From: Chryseobacterium sp. Marseille-Q5410
GTDB lineage: Bacteria > Bacteroidota > Bacteroidia > Flavobacteriales > Weeksellaceae
Reading direction: 5' to 3'
Length of the DNA stretch: 64,000 bases
NCBI GenBank assembly: GCA_946892665.1
Contig: CAMPOT010000001.1
Coordinates: 744,001-808,000, forward strand
Part shown: positions 52,798-64,000 of the stretch, piece by piece
How the letters are laid out: every line of letters starts with the position of its first letter
How positions within the stretch are numbered: the stretch's first letter is position 1
The notes under the pieces: model-generated
What the model was told of the DNA's origin: nothing
Databases searched by the model: none
The model's input: only the letters and a program-made list of their open reading frames with translations
Program-made: the position numbers and the translations under genes

Positions 52798-53018
52798 AAT
52801 ATTTCAGTCAAAGATATACTTTTTCTTCCTATTGCCTATAAACAGGCACTTCTAATTTTTCAGTTATAAAATCTAACGCAGTCCAACGCATCCAAATTAA
52901 GGGTTTGTTGTACTATTTGTTATACTTTTGAATCACGGTATTGGTACCAAAATGAGCCGTAAAAATTTCCTTTCTGTCGCATTTTTTAATGCTGACACTA
53001 ACTCTAAATTTTTATACC

Positions 53019-54236
53019 ATGGCATCATTAAAATTCATCCTCAAAACACAGCAAGAAGACAAAACAGGCAAATGCCCTCTTTACATCAGACTGATTAAAG
53101 ATCGAAAAGCAAAATTTATTTCAACGGGAATCAAACTGGAAAAAAATCAATGGGACGAAGCAAAACAGAAAGTCAGAAAAAATTTTCCGAACAGCACCCG
53201 TCTGAATGCGATGTTGGCTTCCAAGATTGCAGATGCTTCTGTTGAAATCATGGATCAGGAGCGAAAAATAAAAAGTGTAAACGCAGACCAGTTAAAAAAG
53301 GCATTGCTCGGAGCCGATTCAGTAAATTTTTTCCAGTATGCTTACAAAACGATTAATATAATGCGTGGAAACATTTCAGAAAACACTTACTTTAACTATA
53401 TCTTTTATGTAAACTGCCTGAAAGACTTCGTTGGAACAGAAGATCTTACTTTCCAGGATATCACACTTGCATTGATAAAAGAATATGTTTCTTACAGCAT
53501 CACTGTAAAAGGTCTGAAATCTTCTTCGGTAAAATCCTCACTGATTCCGCTGTCAGCCATTTTTAATATGGCAATTGATGAGCAAATTATTGAAAAGTCA
53601 AATTATCCGTTCGACAAAATCAAACTGAAATCACAACCAGCAAAGAGAAACTTCCTGTCTTTAGAACAGATTGAAGCACTAAAAAATTACAAGCCGAAAC
53701 AAAAAAGCAAACGCGATGTCTGCCGTGATATGTTTCTTTTTGCGGTTTCATCTGCAGGTTTGAGATTTTCGGATGTAGTGACACTTTGTTGGGAAAACAT
53801 CGATTTGGAAACTGGCATCATTGAAAGAAGAATCGGAAAGACAGGACGGCGTCACCGTCTCAAAATGGGAGCAACGGCACAGGAGATTATAAAAAAGTAT
53901 TTGCCTGAAACCATGGATAAAAAGAAACTCGTTTTTCCTGCAATTTCTCAGAATATTTTTGATTCTCAAGATCAGGTCGCCCTTAGAACTTTAATAACAA
54001 ATTCTAATGCCATTTTTAACTACTATCTGAAATGTATCGGAACTGAATTGGAATTCCCCTTCCCCGTTCATTTTCATATGAGCAGACATACTTTCGCAAC
54101 GCAGGCACTAAGCAAAGGAATGCGAATTGAATTTGTCAGCAAGTTAATGGACCACTCTAATATAAAGACTACCCAAATCTATGCAAAGATTATTAATGAA
54201 GATCTGGACAAAGCCGTCGACACATTTGTTATCTAG
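53019..54236 (+). CDS. Bacteroidota-type tyrosine integrase
   Basis: 405 residues from ATG 53019 (MASLKFILKTQQEDKTGKCP), the typical arm-binding N-terminus. A longer start at 52989 adds ten residues without family match. A SAM-like core follows, then the catalytic domain with R (SSAGLRFSDVV), H-x-x-R (HMSRHTFATQ), H (MDHSNIKT) and Y (TQIYAKI). It belongs to the integrases of Bacteroidetes conjugative and mobilisable elements and presumably mediates insertion beside gmk. A terminator follows. Confidence 0.92.
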   Translation: MASLKFILKTQQEDKTGKCPLYIRLIKDRKAKFISTGIKLEKNQWDEAKQKVRKNFPNSTRLNAMLASKIADASVEIMDQERKIKSVNADQLKKALLGADSVNFFQYAYKTINIMRGNISENTYFNYIFYVNCLKDFVGTEDLTFQDITLALIKEYVSYSITVKGLKSSSVKSSLIPLSAIFNMAIDEQIIEKSNYPFDKIKLKSQPAKRNFLSLEQIEALKNYKPKQKSKRDVCRDMFLFAVSSAGLRFSDVVTLCWENIDLETGIIERRIGKTGRRHRLKMGATAQEIIKKYLPETMDKKKLVFPAISQNIFDSQDQVALRTLITNSNAIFNYYLKCIGTELEFPFPVHFHMSRHTFATQALSKGMRIEFVSKLMDHSNIKTTQIYAKIINEDLDKAVDTFVI

Positions 54237-54248
54237 TGAATAAATTTA

Positions 54249-54275
54249 AAATCCCTACCAAAGGGATTTTTTTAT
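54249..54275 (+). terminator. Integrase terminator
   Basis: An 8-bp stem (aaatccct with agggattt) around ACCAA is followed by T residues. Confidence 0.85.
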
Positions 54276-54375
54276 TTTGTTACAATTTGTATCAAATATT
54301 ATTTATATGACGGTCAAGACTTTATATTCAATATGTTAAAGTGTTAATAAATTGCCCTTGATTTTTATCTTTTGC

Positions 54376-54395
54376 TTCGTTATTTTCGTAGTATG
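54376..54395 (+). promoter_or_regulatory. TATTTTCG promoter-like copy
   Basis: ttcgttattttcgtagt is identical to the region before the T9SS plug gene and is again followed by ATGATGAAA, here opening only a 12-codon frame (54393-54431). It is probably the promoter for the next gene, giving a leader of about 130 nt. No other feature is seen in 54276-54521. Confidence 0.4.
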
Positions 54396-54521
54396 ATGAA
54401 AAAGCAAAAAAAATGCGTGAAATTCGGGTGAATGTTGATTGATTTTTGCCAAATATCGAAGAAATGAAGAAAAACAGGACGATTCCAAAAATTAATAAAA
54501 CACAAATACAAAGTTCAGGCT

Positions 54522-55427
54522 ATGGATCGCTATCTACTAAAGGAAACTGCACCTTTCATGCAATTTTCGTCCGTAAAGGTTACGGATGAGTTTAATCCGT
54601 TATTCGATATAGAAGCGATTCCAAAACAGACTCTTGAAGACTACTGCCAGCAGTTAATCAACAGAATTTTCTCAATTTCCCTGAAACACATTCCCGCATT
54701 TATTTTACACCACTGTAAACTGGTGAAAAAACCTTTGCTTTGGCTCAATAAACTTGAAAAACTCATAGAACTTAATATTGAATTATTTTCAGGAGCAAGA
54801 AACCAAAGCCGCCTGTATAAGTTTTACACCTGTATTCAATCCAAACGGGAAAAACTGGAATCCGAACATCTGGATGAAAATAAAATTAAACCACCTAAAA
54901 AATACATCAATGCCGAATCTGAAGACCGGTATTTCTCATTTTATGAAGTCCAAAAGGAAGTGGACTTGATGACTTCCGACCGTGAAAAGATTTTATTTCT
55001 TACCAAAGAAAAGTTTGCTTACAACAGGGCGGTTATCGATTTGGAAAACAAGCATTTGCCTTTCTATCCTGATGAATGCGACAAACTGATTACTGAAATC
55101 CAGACACTGGCAAGACTTCAGGAAGAAGAAAAGTCCACCGAAGACCTGGAAAAGTCCACTGTGGACTTTTTTCAAAAAACCAAAACCAATTTGAAAGTCA
55201 ATCAGTTAGTGGATGTTTTTATTCAACTGCAGCGCGAAATTTTTGTTGATGGCCGCCCTGCAATTGATGCAGAAAACAGCGAAATAGTGCAGTTGATATG
55301 TAAAAATTTCAGAGATAAAGACGGAAATTCAATAAGTCCACAGACCGTCAAGACAATTATGATGCCTTCCAAACCCGAGAAACGCCCGAAAGGTGCTAAC
55401 AGACTGGATATTGAGGGTATGCTCTAA
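54522..55427 (+). CDS. Unrecognised mobile-element accessory protein
   Basis: 301 residues, soluble, mostly helical by composition. It begins MDRYLLKETAPFMQFSSVKV. A Lys/Glu-rich middle (about 190-225) contains EEKSTEDLEKSTVDFFQKTK. It ends with SISPQTVKTIMMPSKPEKRP, a possible DNA-contacting tail. No family was recognised. Similar genes usually sit between the integrase and the excisionase/primase in Bacteroidota islands, so a role in element maintenance or regulation is inferred only from context. Confidence 0.6.
   Translation: MDRYLLKETAPFMQFSSVKVTDEFNPLFDIEAIPKQTLEDYCQQLINRIFSISLKHIPAFILHHCKLVKKPLLWLNKLEKLIELNIELFSGARNQSRLYKFYTCIQSKREKLESEHLDENKIKPPKKYINAESEDRYFSFYEVQKEVDLMTSDREKILFLTKEKFAYNRAVIDLENKHLPFYPDECDKLITEIQTLARLQEEEKSTEDLEKSTVDFFQKTKTNLKVNQLVDVFIQLQREIFVDGRPAIDAENSEIVQLICKNFRDKDGNSISPQTVKTIMMPSKPEKRPKGANRLDIEGML
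55129..55170. repeat. Triple AAAAGTCCAC motif inside the accessory gene
   Basis: AAAAGTCCAC at 55129-55138, again at 55150-55159, and its inverse GTGGACTTTT at 55161-55170. The last two form a perfect 10-bp palindrome around one T. Confidence 0.7.
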
Positions 55428-55516
55428 AATTATTTGGTCTTCGTGGACTAAAAAAAGACCAAAAGACTTTTTTCTTTCAAACAACTTTGCACCATAATCT
55501 TAAAACAAAAAATTTT

Positions 55517-55798
55517 ATGGAAGCAATTATCTTATCCAAAGAACAGTTTGAAGGTCTGATTTCCAAAATCAACGACATCCACGAAAAAGTAAATGCGAAG
55601 TCCGCACCAAAACAGGAAGTATTCCTGGACAATGAGGAATTTATCGCAATGATGAAAATTTCAAGACGCACAGCGCAAAACTGGCGCGACGAAGGAAAAA
55701 TATCCTTCTCACAGGTCGGCAGCAAAATTTACTACAAACTTTCAGATGTCGAAAAACTGATGCAGGATTATTACAACAAATCCTTTTCAAAGAAGTGA
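55517..55798 (+). CDS. HTH_17 (excisionase-like) DNA-binding protein
   Basis: 93 residues from ATG 55517. The C-terminal half is a MerR/Xis-like helix-turn-helix: LDNEEFIAMMKISRRTAQNW, then EGKISFSQVGSKIYYKLSDV. Such small proteins in Bacteroidota mobile elements act as recombination directionality factors or regulators. It has its own terminator and follows the accessory gene after 89 nt. Confidence 0.85.
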   Translation: MEAIILSKEQFEGLISKINDIHEKVNAKSAPKQEVFLDNEEFIAMMKISRRTAQNWRDEGKISFSQVGSKIYYKLSDVEKLMQDYYNKSFSKK

Positions 55799-55828
55799 CT
55801 AACACTTTACCAAACGCTGAAACCATTA

Positions 55829-55856
55829 AGCCCTCAAATTCAGTGAGGGCTTTTCT
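55829..55856 (+). terminator. Terminator of the HTH gene
   Basis: An 8-bp stem (agccctca with tgagggct) is followed by TTTTCTCT. Confidence 0.8.
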
Positions 55857-55861
55857 CTAAA

Positions 55862-55988
55862 CAACCAAAGCCACAAAATAAAATTTTTTGCGACCATTGC
55901 AGCACATCTTGGATGTGCCTTTGCGGACTTAAAAAATCAGCAGCATATTGGTAAAAGAAATCTTTGCGGCCTTTGCGTTAAAAAAATC
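55862..55988. repeat. Nonamer-type repeat cluster in the HTH-primase spacer
   Basis: Contains ctttgcggc and ctttgcgtt in tandem (55962-55979), a related CCTTTGCG followed by TTAAAAAA copy at 55917-55933, an inverted relative (aaccaaagccacaaaa) at 55863, and a perfect gcacatc/gatgtgc hairpin at 55902-55918. No gene lies here. Confidence 0.5.
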
Positions 55989-56000
55989 AAATAATTAACT

Positions 56001-56042
56001 GTCACCCTGAGCCTGTCGAAGGGTCTAACATCTAACATCTAA
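56001..56042. repeat. REP-like palindrome plus heptamer tandem upstream of the primase
   Basis: CACCCTGAGCCTGTCGAAGG is a word known from dispersed REP-like repeats in many bacteria. It is directly followed by TCTAACA twice and a partial third copy, ending 4 nt before the primase ATG. Confidence 0.65.
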
Positions 56043-56046
56043 ACAA

Positions 56047-58233
56047 ATGAAATCCACAATATTCAAAAACTTCAACGAACCTACAGAAACCAAAGATATC
56101 CTAAAAATTCTCGACGATATCAAAACCGGAGCTTACCGAAGTGCAATAATTTATTTGCGTAAATCCCTTGCCGACAGCAAAATAGAAGCAGCAGAAAGAG
56201 CCAAAAAATCACTTCCTGCATTCACACCTTCTGCCACATTCAAAGGCGGCAGGAAAATGGAATTTTTAATTAATTACAACGCTTTAGTGGTTTTGGATAT
56301 TGACAAAATATCACCTGAAAAACTCGCTGAATGTGTATCAATTCTGAATTCCAATGAGTTTGTATTTTCTTATTTCGTCAGTCCTTCAGGAAACGGACTA
56401 AAAATTTTTGTAAAAGTTGATTCCGGTAAAGATGAACACAAAGATGCTTTCTTGGTCCTACAGAAATATTTTGAAGAATTACTGCAGGTAGAAATCGATA
56501 AATCCGGTAAAGACATTACAAGACTGTGCTTCTGTTCCTTTGATCCTGAATTATTCGTAAACGAAAATTCCGAAGTATTTTTCGTGATTGAAAGCCGCGA
56601 AGAACCAAAGGAAAATCAGCAATCAAAAAAATCAGATAACCAACAACTGACAACCGATAACCCCGAAACAGTGTATGAGCATTGTGTCCGCTACACAGAA
56701 AAGAAAATCCGGTTCACAGAAGGCAACCGCAATAATTTCGTATTCCAACTCGCAAACAATCTCAACCGGAAAGGATTGTCAGAATCTTTGGCTTTAGGTT
56801 TTATCCTGGCAGATTACAATTACGACCAAAACGAAGTAATGACAGCCGTTAAAAGTGCGTATCAAAACACCGCTGAACATAACACTGATACCTTCCCACC
56901 TAAACAAAAATCTGCTAAATCTGTGCAATCTGTGAGTAAAAAAAGCAATTCAGGTGAATCATCCGTGAAAAAGATTGAAGACGGCAATTTTTCTGATGAC
57001 GAAGAAGAACAGCCCTCATACATTGATAAACTGGAAATGTTTCTTAACAACCGTTACAATTTCAGATACAACACCGTTTTAGGAAAATTAGAATTCAAAA
57101 CCCTGAAAGCCCACAAATGGAAACCGATGACTGATTTTTCTGAAAACTCAATCCTTCGTGAAATCCTGAAAGCAAAAGTAAAATGCAGTATCAATTCATT
57201 ACGAAACCTGCTTCATTCCGACTACTGCGATATGTTTGATCCGTTCAACATCTATTTTGAAAACATTCCCGAAAATGAAGATGAAACCGACTGGATAGAA
57301 AAACTGGCAGACACTATCACAACAACAAAACAGAATCTCTGGAGAGAATGTTTTAAAAAATGGTTTGTTGCAATGGTTGCCTGTGTTCTTGATGAAAAGC
57401 AGGTAAATCAAACCGTAATAGTTTTTTCAGGAAAACAAGGATTGGGAAAAACAACCTGGATAGAAAAACTGATGCCCAAACCCCTCAAAGAATATATCTT
57501 CTCAGGAACCATAAACCCCAGCAACAAAGACACTCTGATTCACCTTGCTGAATGTATGTTAATCAACCTGGACGAACTGGAAAACCTGAACAGAACAGAA
57601 ATTGGCTCACTGAAAGAAATCATTACCAAAACCCACATAAGAATGAGAAAAGCCTATGGCCACAATAATGAAAATATGCCGCGCCGCGCTTCATTTGCCG
57701 GCAGCGTAAACACTGCCCAGTTCCTGAATGATACAACTGGTTCCCGTCGTTTCCTTTGCTTCGAAGTGGAACACATAGAATACACTCACGAAATTGACAT
57801 CAATAAAGTTTATTCCCAAGCATTAAAACTGCATAAAGAAGGCTTCCGACATTGGTTCAATCAGGAAGAAATCAAAGAAATCAACGACAACAACGAACAG
57901 TACCAGTTAAGAAGCCCTGAAGAAGAATTACTGCTAACCTGGTTCAAAGTTTCAGATAAAGAAAATGCTAACGCATTTCTAAACACCACTCAAATTGCGG
58001 TAAAACTAGCAGAAAGGGCAAAACTCAATATTACAGATGGAACAGTTCATAAATTGGGAAAAGCCCTCAAAAAACACAATTATTTGCGTCTGAAAAGAAA
58101 CGGCAGTTATGTATATGCTATGTTGGAAAAAACTTTTGACGAAGTGGAAGCAGAAAACCGCCTTGATGATCATTCAGAATCTTCTAAAAATAACTCTATT
58201 CAGTCACATTTCAGGTTCCAAAATGACAATTAA
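56047..58233 (+). CDS. BT4734-like/VirE primase-helicase fusion
   Basis: 728 residues. The N-terminal BT4734-like domain (about 1-190) has VVLDIDKIS and FSYFVSPSGNGLKIFVKV, the archaeo-eukaryotic primase-like core. A PriCT-like middle (FQLANNLNRKGLSES) follows, then a low-complexity linker (about 270-320) and a VirE superfamily-3-like ATPase with Walker A FSGKQGLGKTTWIEKL (about residue 460-475), INLDELENLNR and the arginine-rich sensor area. It probably initiates replication of the mobile element. The linkers contain repeat-derived sequence. It ends in a strong terminator. Confidence 0.85.
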   Translation: MKSTIFKNFNEPTETKDILKILDDIKTGAYRSAIIYLRKSLADSKIEAAERAKKSLPAFTPSATFKGGRKMEFLINYNALVVLDIDKISPEKLAECVSILNSNEFVFSYFVSPSGNGLKIFVKVDSGKDEHKDAFLVLQKYFEELLQVEIDKSGKDITRLCFCSFDPELFVNENSEVFFVIESREEPKENQQSKKSDNQQLTTDNPETVYEHCVRYTEKKIRFTEGNRNNFVFQLANNLNRKGLSESLALGFILADYNYDQNEVMTAVKSAYQNTAEHNTDTFPPKQKSAKSVQSVSKKSNSGESSVKKIEDGNFSDDEEEQPSYIDKLEMFLNNRYNFRYNTVLGKLEFKTLKAHKWKPMTDFSENSILREILKAKVKCSINSLRNLLHSDYCDMFDPFNIYFENIPENEDETDWIEKLADTITTTKQNLWRECFKKWFVAMVACVLDEKQVNQTVIVFSGKQGLGKTTWIEKLMPKPLKEYIFSGTINPSNKDTLIHLAECMLINLDELENLNRTEIGSLKEIITKTHIRMRKAYGHNNENMPRRASFAGSVNTAQFLNDTTGSRRFLCFEVEHIEYTHEIDINKVYSQALKLHKEGFRHWFNQEEIKEINDNNEQYQLRSPEEELLLTWFKVSDKENANAFLNTTQIAVKLAERAKLNITDGTVHKLGKALKKHNYLRLKRNGSYVYAMLEKTFDEVEAENRLDDHSESSKNNSIQSHFRFQNDN

Positions 58234-58556: not shown

Positions 58557-59546
58557 ATGGCTCAAAACAAAAATGCGGTAATTCGGTATAAAGCATTGGA
58601 TAAATGCTTCTCAAACCCGTATAAAAAATTCTATATCAAAGACCTGATTGAATATTGTTCCAATGTTCTTTCGGAGCATTATGCAACAGAAACAACAGTT
58701 TCTCGCAGGCAAATTTTTGATGATATGGATTTTATGAAAAGCGAAGCCGGGTATGATGCGCCAATTGAAAGCATTAAAGATGGGCGTAAAGTTTTCTACA
58801 GATATACGGATCCCGATTTTTCAATACTTAAAAAGCCGCTTTCTTCGCAGGAAATTGGTCAACTAACAGAAGCGTTGGAAACAATGAGCCGTATGAAGAA
58901 CCTTCCGGGTTTCGAGTGGATTGAAGAAATTCAAACAAAAATTAATGCGGGGTTGAATCTTCAGCATTCAGAGAAAAAAATTATTGATTTTGAAGTCAAC
59001 GAGATTCTGAAAGGTCTCGAATTCCTAAACACACTTTATCAATTTATCCTAAATAAGCAGCCGGTTGTCATTTCCTATAAAAGTTTTAAAACAGAAACAG
59101 GTTCTACCTTTGAGATTTCGCCGTATTATTTGAAACAATACAACAACCGATGGTTTTTGTTTGGGTGGAATCATAATAATGAGATGATTATTAATCTCGC
59201 TTTAGACCGTATTCAGGATATAGAGCCAACAAATGTCAATTATGTTGATTCAGAAATTAATTTTCAGGAATATTTTGAAGATATTATCGGTGTAAGTCAT
59301 AATTTGGATGCGGAGACTGACGAAGTAATAATAGAAATGTCGCAAAATATTATCCCATATATTAGAACAAAACCTTTACACGGCTCCCAAAAAATTATTG
59401 GGAATAAGTTGTCTTTGGAGGTTAAATTAAATTATGAACTGGAATCTCTGATTTTATCGTATGGTGAAAATATGAAGGTAATCCAGCCTGAACAATTAAA
59501 AGAATCATTAAGAAAAAGAATAATTAAATTAGCAGAATGTTACTAA
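58557..59546 (+). CDS. WYL-domain transcriptional regulator
   Basis: 329 residues from ATG 58557 (MAQNKNAVIRYKALDKCF). An upstream in-frame start would place a spurious hydrophobic stretch from the A/T-rich spacer at the N-terminus. A winged-helix N-terminus (ETTVSRRQIFDDMDFM) is followed by a WYL domain (PVVISYKSFK and the later FEISPYYLKQYNNRWFLFGW) and a C-terminal WCX extension. This layout matches BrxR/CapW-type regulators that control phage-defence genes. It directly precedes the methylase-kinase operon and probably regulates it. Confidence 0.87.
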   Translation: MAQNKNAVIRYKALDKCFSNPYKKFYIKDLIEYCSNVLSEHYATETTVSRRQIFDDMDFMKSEAGYDAPIESIKDGRKVFYRYTDPDFSILKKPLSSQEIGQLTEALETMSRMKNLPGFEWIEEIQTKINAGLNLQHSEKKIIDFEVNEILKGLEFLNTLYQFILNKQPVVISYKSFKTETGSTFEISPYYLKQYNNRWFLFGWNHNNEMIINLALDRIQDIEPTNVNYVDSEINFQEYFEDIIGVSHNLDAETDEVIIEMSQNIIPYIRTKPLHGSQKIIGNKLSLEVKLNYELESLILSYGENMKVIQPEQLKESLRKRIIKLAECY

Positions 59547-59669: not shown

Positions 59670-62198
59670 ATGGAAAACAATAGAAACGGAAAAACTTCAG
59701 TAATGGTAGAACACAAAACAAGTATAAGGGATATAACAAATCTTTTGCGAAATGAAAATATTGTTTCGGAAGATTACCATATTGTTTTGTTTTTACTGTC
59801 ATTGTATAGGGACAATCTGTTGCCAAATGGAAATATTGTAGGCAATAGAGATTTGAGTTTTCTAATTAAGGAAAAAATAATGCGTGCTGAAAAAACAGTT
59901 GCAGAGCCTTATTTGGAATTATTTCCTGTTTTCGAAAATCTATTGGATGGTTTAAGACTATCAACATATCATAATCTCTATCAAATATTTGATGGTATTG
60001 AGAAAGATTATCTTAATAAAAATTTTTCGGATTTATTTGATGAGTTTTTGCAGGTTATTATTCAGGCATCAGGTAAATATGGTGCTGGTTTTAGCCAACC
60101 CAAAGAAATAACGCAGTTAATTAACAACTTGGTGGAAATCAAAAAAGACGCCCGCGTTTTTAATCCTTTTGCAGGATTGGCTTCTTTTGGTGTCTCGTTT
60201 TCTGATGATTTTTTTTATTATGGTCAGGAGTTTAACAAAAAAACTTGGGCTTTAGGAACTTTAAGGCTATTAGCATACAACCGTTATCAAAATTCTAAAT
60301 TTAATTGTGAAGATTCCCTTTCGGAATGGCCTTCCGATTCAGAGAAATTTGATTTAATTGTCTCAAATCCACCTTTTAGTATGCGAATTTCAAATTCACA
60401 TAGGTTTGAAGGTGTGGATTCTTCACTTGCTGAAAGTTTTGTAATTGAAAAAGGACTCAATTCTTTGACTGAAGAAGGACAATTAATAGCAATAGTTCCA
60501 AATGGATTCTTATTCCGTGAAACTGGTGAACAGGCTATAAGAAGACAGTTAGTTGTTAGAGATTACCTCGATACAGTCATTCAGTTACCTGCCGGTTTAT
60601 TACCTGGTACAGGTATTCCGGTTACCGTGATAGTGATCAACAAAAACAAAAAAACCACAGGTAAGGTGCGGTTTATAGATGCAAGAAAGTTTGTTGTAAA
60701 GCAAAATCGTTGGGCAAAAATTCTTGACATTGAAAGACTTAAAAGCGTTATCAATGGAAATTATAACGATGATTCTATTATCCAATTCGTGGATAACGAA
60801 ACCATTCGTGATAATGACTATAACCTGAATGTTCCGCGTTATTTACAGCCGGAAATAGAGGGAGTTAAATTAAATGAAATACTCACGGTGATTCGTGGAG
60901 ATAGAAGAAACATTCCTGTTTCCGGCAAATTAGTTAGAATTCGCGACTTGTCAGACAGTATGGCCGAAACGGTAACAGGGTTTGAAGATGTTTTGGATTC
61001 TGATTTATTAACACCTGGTATTACCGCAATTAATCAGTCCTGCCTGTTATTGGCGACTATCGGCAATAGTTTAAAACCTACAGTTTTTGAATATAAAGGC
61101 GAACCAATTTATATAAGAAATGAAATTTTGGCTTGCAAAATAAAGGAAGATATTGCTGATATCACCTTCGTTGCAAATGAATTGAATAACCCCGAGGTTC
61201 TAATGCAATTGGACGCTTTCAATACTGGTGCAACAATTAGTAGAATTAGAAGAGCGGATGTGATGGATATTGTAATTCCTCTTCCCACACTACAAGAGCA
61301 GAAAGCAAAGGTTCAGGGATTTAAACTGTTATCTGAAGAAGCAAAAGAGTTGCGTAATATCCGCAATGAATTGGCGAATGGTGTTGCGCAGAAACACTTC
61401 AACGAATATGCCTCACTGAAACACACTTTAGGAACACCACGCCAAAATATCTTGGATTGGTCCAACAACTTGATTCAGTTTTTTGAATTGAAAAAGAATC
61501 AATTAGAAGATTTGGATGCTGATTTCAAAGATGCTTTTCAGATTAATATGAAAGATGCAGTTTCAATTATCAGAAATGATATTAATTTTATGACCGAAGT
61601 TTTGGAAAGAGGCGAAAAAGGATTGGTGTTGTCAGAATATCCGCTGACGAATGTGAAGTTAGTGGATATCAAGGAAATGATTGAAAATTTGTCTTCAGCA
61701 GGGATGAAGTTTAACTTGATGCGTGACTTTGATACCAATGTAGATGCAGTTGATTTATCTGTCACCTGCAATTTGACGCTGCTCAAAATATTGATAAGTA
61801 ATATTTTAACCAATGCAGACAGACACGGTTTCGATAATTACAGTCCCGCAAACGAAGTAGTGATTAGTCTGTATGTGGATCATTCTTATCTCAATCTGGA
61901 AATAAAAAATAATGGAAAACCTTTTCCAAAGAACTTCGGCAAGGAGAAATTTATTGAAAAATTTTCGAAATCTGGAGGTAGTAATGGTAGTGGTATCGGC
62001 GGCAATGACATTGACCGTATTGCTACCTATTTTTCAAGTGACCATATCAATACATTGAAGGAGTTTAGAAGAGTTTTAGGTAAAGAATACGAAGATATTG
62101 GTTTGGATGTTTGGGATTTGATTTTGAATGAAGATCCAATCTATCCTGTGATCTTTAAATTTAGTTTTAATATTTGGGGAACCGCAATGACATTATGA
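59670..62198 (+). CDS. N6-adenine DNA methylase - HsdS-like TRD - histidine kinase fusion
   Basis: 842 residues from ATG 59670, preferred over 59643 because AAAGG precedes it and family-like sequence starts there. Residues 120-345 are an HsdM-like methylase: SAM motif I FNPFAG (164-169) and catalytic VSNPPF (231-236). Residues about 391-550 look like one HsdS target-recognition half ending in IPLPTLQEQKAKVQ (536-549). The C-terminus is a histidine-kinase module: H-box KHTLGTPRQNI with H585 as likely phospho-acceptor, N-box LISNILTNADRHG (708-720), IKNNGKPFP (745-753) and glycine-rich GGSNGSGIGG (769-778). I know of no described protein with this combination. The next gene overlaps by 4 bp and encodes a receiver protein. 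Confidence 0.82.
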   Translation: MENNRNGKTSVMVEHKTSIRDITNLLRNENIVSEDYHIVLFLLSLYRDNLLPNGNIVGNRDLSFLIKEKIMRAEKTVAEPYLELFPVFENLLDGLRLSTYHNLYQIFDGIEKDYLNKNFSDLFDEFLQVIIQASGKYGAGFSQPKEITQLINNLVEIKKDARVFNPFAGLASFGVSFSDDFFYYGQEFNKKTWALGTLRLLAYNRYQNSKFNCEDSLSEWPSDSEKFDLIVSNPPFSMRISNSHRFEGVDSSLAESFVIEKGLNSLTEEGQLIAIVPNGFLFRETGEQAIRRQLVVRDYLDTVIQLPAGLLPGTGIPVTVIVINKNKKTTGKVRFIDARKFVVKQNRWAKILDIERLKSVINGNYNDDSIIQFVDNETIRDNDYNLNVPRYLQPEIEGVKLNEILTVIRGDRRNIPVSGKLVRIRDLSDSMAETVTGFEDVLDSDLLTPGITAINQSCLLLATIGNSLKPTVFEYKGEPIYIRNEILACKIKEDIADITFVANELNNPEVLMQLDAFNTGATISRIRRADVMDIVIPLPTLQEQKAKVQGFKLLSEEAKELRNIRNELANGVAQKHFNEYASLKHTLGTPRQNILDWSNNLIQFFELKKNQLEDLDADFKDAFQINMKDAVSIIRNDINFMTEVLERGEKGLVLSEYPLTNVKLVDIKEMIENLSSAGMKFNLMRDFDTNVDAVDLSVTCNLTLLKILISNILTNADRHGFDNYSPANEVVISLYVDHSYLNLEIKNNGKPFPKNFGKEKFIEKFSKSGGSNGSGIGGNDIDRIATYFSSDHINTLKEFRRVLGKEYEDIGLDVWDLILNEDPIYPVIFKFSFNIWGTAMTL

Positions 62199-63337
62199 TG
62201 TATAATATACTTTGGATCGACGATGATCACGAAAAAATGCTGGGTCTGAAAGGCCGTGCAAAAATGGCAAATATCACACTCAATGGCTTTAAGTCAAAGG
62301 AAAGTGGTATGGCGGAACTGAAAAAAAATTATCAGAACTATGATGGAGTATTGCTCGATGCCAAATTTTTGGAAAGCGATTCTGATGTGGAAGGTTCAGA
62401 AGATACTTTGTTTATTCACCGCACAAGAGATGAAATCAGAGATCTTCCAAAAAAGTTTGAAATTTTCGTGCTTACAGGTCAGGCAGAAGCATTCGACAGT
62501 TCTGAATTCAAAAAATCTTTTCAGAATGTATATGTGAAAGGTAGTGATGAGAGCATAAACAAACTGTTCACCGACCTAAAAGCCGCTGCAGACAGACAAC
62601 AGGACACACAACTGCGCCACAAATTCCCGGAAGTCTTTAAGATTTTGGATGAAAAATGTATCGGCTCAAAACACAGCGATACCTTGCTTTCGGTGTTGAA
62701 AAGTCTTTCCGATGATTCCCTTGCTGGCGTCGATGAAGATTTTACTTCTATTCGTGTGGTTTTGGAAACCATATTCAAGCGACTTTCTGAACTGGAAATT
62801 CTACCTGCAAATTTCACCGATGAAAAAGGTTGGATTAATGGCTCTTCAAAATTTATTTCAAACAAACACGAATCCTATTTGCATACAGATTCCGACTTTT
62901 TTCATCCAATGGTTCAGGAAACCCTGTTCCGTATTATGAATGTCGTTCAGGACGGCTCACACAACGAGGGAAACCTCAATTATAAATGTGACGATTTTTG
63001 CCGAACTCAAAAAACGGGCTACCTCTATAAAAGCACAGTCTATGCTTTTCTGGATGTGTTGGTATATTTCAGAAAACTGATGGACGACAACCAAAACCCC
63101 GAAGAAAACAGAAAACGTTGGAAAACTAGCGAATCACAATCTAAAACAGGAATCTTGAAACAGGATGAAAATAACAATTTCTTTATAGACGATTGCATTT
63201 TTCAATACAATATAGTTTCTAAAGTTTTAAAACCCGGTGATGTAGTTGAAATCCTTTCCACCAATGCCAATACCAACGCCAAAACAAAAGACAAATACCC
63301 ATTTTTTGTAACCAAGTTTAATAAAATCAACCCTTAG
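62195..63337 (+). CDS. Receiver-domain protein with unknown C-terminal domain
   Basis: 380 residues from ATG 62195, which overlaps the preceding stop (ATGA). Residues 1-130 form a receiver domain with all canonical residues: D9/D10 (WIDDD), phospho-acceptor D55 (VLLDAK), T94 (VLTG) and K115 (VYVKG). The remaining 250 residues match nothing I recognise. They are helical (VVLETIFKRLSEL) and include VVQDGSHNEG, which weakly resembles HEPN/DUF4145-type helices, and end with a beta-rich tail (KPGDVVEILSTN). No HTH is evident. Presumably the phosphorylation partner of the upstream kinase module. Confidence 0.8.
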   Translation: MMYNILWIDDDHEKMLGLKGRAKMANITLNGFKSKESGMAELKKNYQNYDGVLLDAKFLESDSDVEGSEDTLFIHRTRDEIRDLPKKFEIFVLTGQAEAFDSSEFKKSFQNVYVKGSDESINKLFTDLKAAADRQQDTQLRHKFPEVFKILDEKCIGSKHSDTLLSVLKSLSDDSLAGVDEDFTSIRVVLETIFKRLSELEILPANFTDEKGWINGSSKFISNKHESYLHTDSDFFHPMVQETLFRIMNVVQDGSHNEGNLNYKCDDFCRTQKTGYLYKSTVYAFLDVLVYFRKLMDDNQNPEENRKRWKTSESQSKTGILKQDENNNFFIDDCIFQYNIVSKVLKPGDVVEILSTNANTNAKTKDKYPFFVTKFNKINP

Positions 63338-63357
63338 AAAATAATTAATAACAATAT

Positions 63358-64000
63358 ATGACCACCCGCCACAAACTCGAAAAAACCCTTTGGCAATCTG
63401 CCGATAAACTGCGTAGCAATATGGATGCTGCCGAATACAAGCACGTGGTTCTCGGGCTTATTTTCCTTAAATATATTTCCGATGCCTTCAAGGAGCATTA
63501 CAACCATCTTGTAGAAACACAGGCAGAAACCGGAGCCGATCCCGAAGATAAGGATGAATATACCGGCGACCGTATTTTCTATGTGCCGCCTTCCGCGCGT
63601 TGGGAGTGGTTGCAGGGACGCGCCAAATTGCCAACTATTGGGAAAGATATAGATGAGGCAATGGATGCTATAGAGAAAGACAATCCTCAACTGAAAGGCG
63701 TTTTGCCAAAAGATTATGCACGGCCTACTTTGGATAAAATGCGTTTGGGCGAACTCATCGATCTTATCGGTTCTATTACGCTTTCGCAAAAAGGAAAAGG
63801 TAAGGACAAAGATATTCTGGGCGAAGTATTCGAATATTTCCTCGGGCAGTTTGCCGATGCCGAAGGCAAGAAAGGAGGTCAATTTTACACGCCGCAGAGT
63901 ATTGTGAAATTACTCGTGGAAATGCTGGAACCGGAAGCTGAAAAACGCTTTTATGATGGTGCTTGCGGAAGTGGTGGGATGTTTGTGCAGAGTGAAAAGT
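63358..64000 (+). CDS. hsdM: Type I restriction-modification methylase HsdM (partial, cut by window end)
   Basis: The first 214 codons are present. The HsdM N-terminal helical domain starts [20 protein letters not shown] and continues [16 protein letters not shown]. The methylase core begins [18 protein letters not shown] and SAM motif [10 protein letters not shown] is the last complete element. It is a standard HsdM, unlike the fused methylase before it, and the gene runs off the window. It starts 20 nt after the receiver gene; hsdS and hsdR are expected to follow. Confidence 0.93.

Follow-up and report, generated by a model that had tools for sequence, protein, structure and literature searches.

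Putative phosphorelay cassette with a methylase-shaped histidine kinase sensor, usually next to type I restriction-modification genes in Bacteroidota

The stretch analysed here (the window) is 64,000 nt of Chryseobacterium sp. Marseille-Q5410, positions 744001–808000 of contig CAMPOT010000001.1, from a genome of 2.69 Mb. Near its right end lies a gene for an 842-residue fusion protein (the sensor), composed of an HsdM-like methylase, a single HsdS-like target recognition domain (TRD) and a histidine kinase module. It is followed by a gene for a response regulator of 380 residues (the responder) and by a type I restriction-modification (R-M) system (Table 1). By sequence, profile matches, predicted fold and near-invariant residues, sensor and responder look like the two halves of a phosphorelay, as an earlier note on this DNA had proposed. 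On balance we favour a swappable cytosolic phosphorelay, whose methylase-shaped receptor would recognise a constant ligand and which would act through the responder on restriction or on the cell.

Table 1. Features of the locus, in window coordinates.
Feature	Position	Strand	Remarks
WYL-domain regulator (WYL + WCX), first gene of the operon	58557..59546	+	Pfam WYL 1.5e-14, WCX 1.7e-6
Sensor, methyltransferase-TRD-histidine kinase fusion, 842 aa	59670..62198	+	
HsdM-like methylase fold, residues 118-400	60021..60869	+	NPFAG (motif I region) and NPPF (motif IV) in window copy
Single HsdS-like TRD, residues 401-540	60870..61289	+	
Long helix and second helix (DHp)	61290..61619	+	Phospho-acceptor His585 at codon 61422-61424
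Catalytic ATP-binding domain (Bergerat/HATPase_c)	61620..62177	+	Pfam HATPase_c 3e-6
Responder, response regulator, 380 aa	62195..63337	+	ATGA overlap with sensor gene
Receiver domain	62195..62602	+	Phospho-acceptor Asp55 at codon 62357-62359
DUF4145-like helical output domain, residues 140-306	62612..63112	+	hhalign
S1/cold-shock-like OB-fold tail, residues 307-380	63113..63334	+	Profile matches, AF2 strands
hsdM, conventional type I R-M, 510 aa	63358..64000, runs on to 64890	+	

Methylase motifs, half a TRD and a kinase module had been read from this single frame in the earlier note, and all three parts were recovered as an HsdM-like fold, an HsdS-like TRD and a DHp/HATPase_c module. Residues 7–587 share their fold with type I modification enzymes, including the single-chain methyltransferase 7eew. 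The TRD is supported by PADLOC HsdS models (E-values to 9e-9), HsdS chains of the PDB (9e-5) and the AF2 model, and matches Pfam Methylase_S with an E-value of only 0.044. The structure-search alignment (VIA-align) covers residues 8–562, and the kinase was called by profile search and AF2 secondary structure. AF2 places helices at residues 541–607, 613–623 and 627–646, and H585 aligns with the H-box histidine of VicK in the profile comparison. This residue is found in 82 of 83 sensors, the single exception being a gapped row (L162), while the N-box N715 and the glycines G749, G775 and G777 are invariant (83/83); in 82/83 an Asn replaces the Asp of the G1 box. HATPase_c is matched at E ≤ 0.1 by 38 of the 39 sensors scanned.

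The overlapping next gene bears the canonical receiver residues that had been listed for it, with the acidic pair, phospho-acceptor Asp, Thr/Ser and Lys on a (beta-alpha)5 fold (structure-search alignment over residues 1–138). D10, D55, K115 and H256 are invariant in 88/88 responders, with T or S at position 94. A C-terminal ATPase of this kind might be a MORC/GHKL-type clamp and not a phosphotransfer kinase, since GHKL ATPases (paraMORC) adjoin R-M systems according to the excerpt of PMC8011034; with DHp-like helices around a near-invariant H-box His, histidine kinases as best profile matches of the module and a canonical receiver next door, we consider this very improbable.

The pair is conserved together in relatives. 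A species-level genome collection, scanned once with the receiver motif, yielded 72 confirmed loci, of which 69 are from Bacteroidota and 3 are recorded as Pseudomonadota (records that may be mislabelled or misbinned). In a profile search of sampled genomes, 21/395 of the phylum and 18/395 of the class gave matches, weak ones counted. A kinase-module gene lies directly upstream of 71 of 73 receiver genes, with its end at most 49 bases short of the receiver's first start codon and at most 79 bases beyond it (71 genes); the two exceptions are L150, on a contig that opens with the receiver gene, and L125, where the sensor has a frame shift. The linkage to type I R-M and WYL genes, which the earlier note had suggested checking, was found: the commonest order is WYL, sensor kinase, receiver and type I R-M, with WYL in 58/72 loci, HsdM and HsdS in 53/72 and all three Hsd genes in 34/72, many loci being cut by contig or flank ends. 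Three records hold the sensor–receiver pair, one of them a Myroides odoratimimus plasmid with the order WYL, N-6 DNA methylase, receiver, HsdM, HsdS, two more genes and HsdR. Viral contigs scanned with the sensor and with alignment A3 gave 12 and 17 pattern matches, none confirmed as a relative, and phage records scanned with the responder gave no match, i.e., no phage-borne copy at that sensitivity.

Some loci depart from the common form. In L124 (505-4191) the kinase–receiver module is preceded by about 600 residues that are unrelated to the usual N-terminal half and have no Pfam match, and the sensor head is therefore exchangeable. The sensor of L087 (6872-9466) matches HARE-HTH, Methylase_S and HATPase and shows no N6_Mtase match, its methylase part being eroded or replaced and TRD and kinase kept. 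L111 has its sensor gene split into pieces and L125 has a frame shift near the end of that gene; the receiver frame is open in both. Two tandem sensor–receiver pairs occur in L153 (1522-8921), and the 8 kb beyond them contain no Hsd match.

Covariation indicates that the cassette coevolves internally and not with the R-M genes next to it. Kinase and receiver are correlated in pairwise identity (Spearman 0.70), as are HsdM and HsdR (0.83), whereas correlations across the boundary are close to zero: sensor TRD versus HsdS 0.07 (Mantel p 0.25), kinase versus HsdM 0.05 (p 0.23), methylase part versus HsdM 0.05 (p 0.24) and receiver versus HsdR 0.08 (p 0.15). The largest cassette–Hsd correlation among those without a significance test is 0.13. 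HsdM identity is below 0.35 in 40 of the 51 locus pairs (not independent) with kinase identity above 0.75, and the cassette has therefore been exchanged between R-M systems. The sensor TRD shows the same degree of conservation as the other parts of the protein; at kinase identities above 50%, its mean identity is 57% (281 pairs) compared to 24% for HsdS (195 pairs). The two halves of the sensor can also part company, as in L129/L158 (methylase half 53%, kinase half 20% identity). A specificity shared by the sensor and the adjacent HsdS, tried as a candidate, is unsupported by the TRD–HsdS values.

The earlier note had supposed that DNA recognition or methylation state is sensed by the methylase–TRD part. 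Sensing of the mark set by the neighbouring R-M system is not supported: the TRD does not track HsdS, and many sensors lack the catalytic Asn (see below), although the window copy keeps it. A ligand constant across R-M systems is therefore more likely, on sequence grounds, than the methylation mark of the neighbour; the sensor may still recognise a fixed site when it is unmethylated.

The methylase pocket is kept and its chemistry looks optional. In the 78 sensors whose methylase part can be recognised, G169, E187, D228, P234 and P235 are retained in 72–74 (motif I/II positions G169 in 73 and E187 in 72), and the catalytic position of motif IV is N in 42, D or S in 10 and another residue in 26, the Asn thus being missing in 36. 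It is N in 57/57 HsdM controls, made up of 56 neighbours and the HsdM of the window. The [NDS]PP[YF] form of motif IV, tested as the sign of an active adenine methyltransferase, is not kept family-wide, and methylation seems dispensable for the sensor family. The methylase half could still be active as a second methyltransferase, the protein then reading and reporting the methylation state of this half's own target, a reading close to that of the earlier note. The NPPF of the window copy and the retained G169 and E187 fit such a role; the many losses at motif IV, and a TRD that is not diversified like a specificity module, make it quite improbable.

The same pattern of a conserved pocket and TRD with frequent loss of the catalytic Asn would suit a guardian, in which the methylase–TRD part would imitate the type I methylase as bait for phage anti-restriction proteins (Ocr/ArdA-like DNA mimics) and the phosphorelay would fire a back-up response. 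With a TRD that does not follow HsdS, many R-M systems would be expected to share the ligand, and the movement of the cassette between unrelated systems agrees with this. The top Foldseek match of the sensor by E-value is 7eew, a methylase solved with Ocr, as is expected for any methylase–TRD chain, and guardian logic has precedents in PARIS and PrrC (PMC12707154, in excerpt). Binding of mimics is, however, a prediction, and an Ocr decoy would make less sense in L090, which lies beside McrBC genes, or in loci without a nearby Hsd match, so that we regard the guardian as rather unlikely. A wider version, a new class of R-M guardian with a decoy methylase–histidine kinase that responds when viruses inhibit restriction (or to some universal feature of invaders), a REC-DUF4145-OB effector, and a travelling His–Asp immune cassette that occurs divergently in type III CRISPR loci, is conceivable but doubtful.

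The responder continues into two putative output domains. Residues 140–306 align by hhalign with DUF4145 (7 DUF4145 sequences; probability 92.8, score 46.1, with controls at ≤14.2 in 100 column shuffles and at most 21.5 in 8 unrelated alignments). R187 (87/88), E191 (83/88) and H256 (88/88) of the responder coincide with the RxxxE motif and the terminal His of DUF4145. The Pfam DUF4145 model is not among the 25 families listed, of 38, for 71 responders. A HEPN ribonuclease is an unlikely candidate: the catalytic motif Rx4-6H is lacking, with no conserved Arg 4–6 residues before the invariant H256 in 14 aligned responders. The OB-fold tail is matched (E ≤ 0.1) by S1CSD-TOTE-2 in 19/71 and by OB_RNB in 18/71 responders; the window protein matches neither, and by profile it matches CSD structures with an E-value of 0.013. 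Short frames of about 80–100 residues in one related genus (L017–L036) match only this tail (mostly residues 302–379), and the domain seems to exist on its own too. Comparison of the responder and of the WYL protein with the PDB by phmmer gave nothing useful.

Two divergent relatives of the responder sit in type III CRISPR-type loci. In L080 (605-12188) the relative lies among Cas10/Csm-type genes, with Csx1-like and further genes present and a 763-aa HATPase protein without a methylase match beside the receiver. L089 (421-4543) has a receiver, a Cas6-like gene and RT-Cas1.

In sequence and models, the HsdM fold and HsdS-type TRD lead via a long helix straight into the DHp helix. In the phosphorelay that we favour, two sensor subunits would dimerise through this helix, by analogy with two M-plus-half-S units. 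The methylase/TRD surface would be engaged by a constant ligand (some widespread DNA feature, or a DNA mimic with which phages counter restriction) that moves the helix; H585 would then be phosphorylated, and the phosphate would pass to D55. The DUF4145-like and OB domains of the responder may then act on the attached restriction complex or on nucleic acid, raising defence or triggering a second line. HsdR could be the target, because an N-terminal DUF4145 domain related to that of the responder is present in 20 of 37 HsdR proteins examined (those of 36 relatives and the window's own, several incomplete). Phosphotransfer, ligand and phenotype are predictions, as are input and output.

Several observations weigh against the favoured phosphorelay. 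The motif IV state is partly inherited (at least 17 changes on the tree against 26 on average for shuffled labels, a count that cannot tell gain from loss), and the window copy, with its NPPF, could still methylate. The OB tail is apparently absent in shorter relatives, 24 of 88 responders being too short for it. The HsdR of the present locus does not match DUF4145, and the 20/37 lacks a fair base rate, since the scan of 70 genomes used a different model (Pfam DUF4145; one match in a long frame). No HsdM match was found in the approximately 8 kb of downstream DNA fetched for L098, L113, L122 and L153, and the output may therefore not be the R-M system. An output on R-M only is likewise disfavoured by the McrB/McrC-like genes next in L090 and by the relatives in type III CRISPR loci.

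The relay might alternatively serve only to control expression, by modulating the WYL repressor or transcription of the operon. WYL lies directly upstream on the same strand in 51/72 loci (divergent in 1), and CapK/CapS provides a precedent on defence operons (PMC13373217, in excerpt). However, the 25 listed families (of 38) of the 71 responders include no HTH family, apart from weak matches in one or a few members such as RHH_9 and ORF6C, and WYL identities follow those of the receiver weakly (0.27), making this unlikely. The WYL protein itself most likely sets operon expression. Its gene probably starts at ATG 58557 and not at TTG 58461, and alignments to its relatives begin at about residue 30–33.

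The HsdM that follows the responder is conventional, as the earlier note had read it, and past the window end hsdS, a GmrSD-like gene and hsdR follow, the Hsd genes forming a complete type I system (N6_Mtase and HsdM_N; Methylase_S in two stretches; HSDR_N, SWI2_SNF2 and T1RH-like_C). The interval between hsdS and hsdR is occupied by the GmrSD-like gene, which is of type IV restriction kind (L009:14128-15900); in other loci it holds DUF262-like genes, and on the Myroides plasmid a phospholipase-D-like gene. Upstream (52989-58233) are a tyrosine recombinase, HTH_17 and VapE/primase-type genes. The locus is probably an integrated mobile island, because of the recombinase and the VapE/primase-type gene.

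DNA methylases are known as writers. Here the methylase fold appears to have become the sensory head of a kinase across many Bacteroidota, its catalytic residue often lost and the signalling residues frozen, which suggests a molecular alarm attached to a bacterial immune system. If true, restriction systems are not the autonomous units they are usually taken for but are connected to phosphorelay signalling, and a testable prediction follows on what bacteria monitor when restriction is attacked.

Compared to type I modification enzymes (HsdM and HsdS), the sensor has the same fold, with a kinase added and a catalytic motif that is degenerate in many members. Detocs is a phosphorelay in phage defence with another sensor and effector and no methylase; the responder matched no PADLOC model at E ≤ 0.1. 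In the Bacteroidota pair PorX/PorY, PorY is a membrane kinase. We know of no phosphorelay or methylase-shaped sensor in PARIS or PrrC. They resemble the proposed cassette, in the excerpt of PMC12707154, as a second line that detects R-M inhibition, and the output of PorX is a PglZ-type domain (PMC12839542, in excerpt). CapK/CapS is similar in having a DNA-triggered GHKL-family kinase beside defence operons, but, as far as the excerpt of PMC13373217 goes, that kinase phosphorylates Ser in a STAS-domain repressor, with no methylase and no receiver.

The closest parallel is HEF_HK (PF19191) and Response_reg_2 (PF19192), a soluble HK-like/RR-like pair predicted near R-M genes (Bellieny-Rabelo 2021, PMC8011034). 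According to the excerpt of that paper, most HEF_HK begin with a HATPase_c_3 domain related to paraMORC, and their commonest neighbours are type II/C5 methylases and Vsr; type I occurs there too. Both are soluble HK and RR neighbours linked to R-M, with function predicted only; here, in contrast, an HsdM–TRD fusion serves as the sensor, DUF4145-like and OB domains follow the receiver in the responder, and the context is mostly type I. Neither Pfam family matches the window's sensor or responder at E ≤ 1 or is among the 25 families listed of 38 (71 responders) or of 26 (39 sensors), hhalign of the responder against three Response_reg_2 sequences gives a probability of 1–2%, and the window sensor has N6_Mtase at its N-terminus, with no HATPase_c_3 match. 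A methylase–histidine kinase fusion with a receiver is not announced in the titles and abstract openings of the open PMC papers listed by searches on kinases, receivers, defence and anti-restriction guardians. The earlier note's remark that no such system is described thus stands for this layout in the open papers searched but not for R-M-linked two-component-like pairs in general: pairs of another family had already been predicted in 2021.

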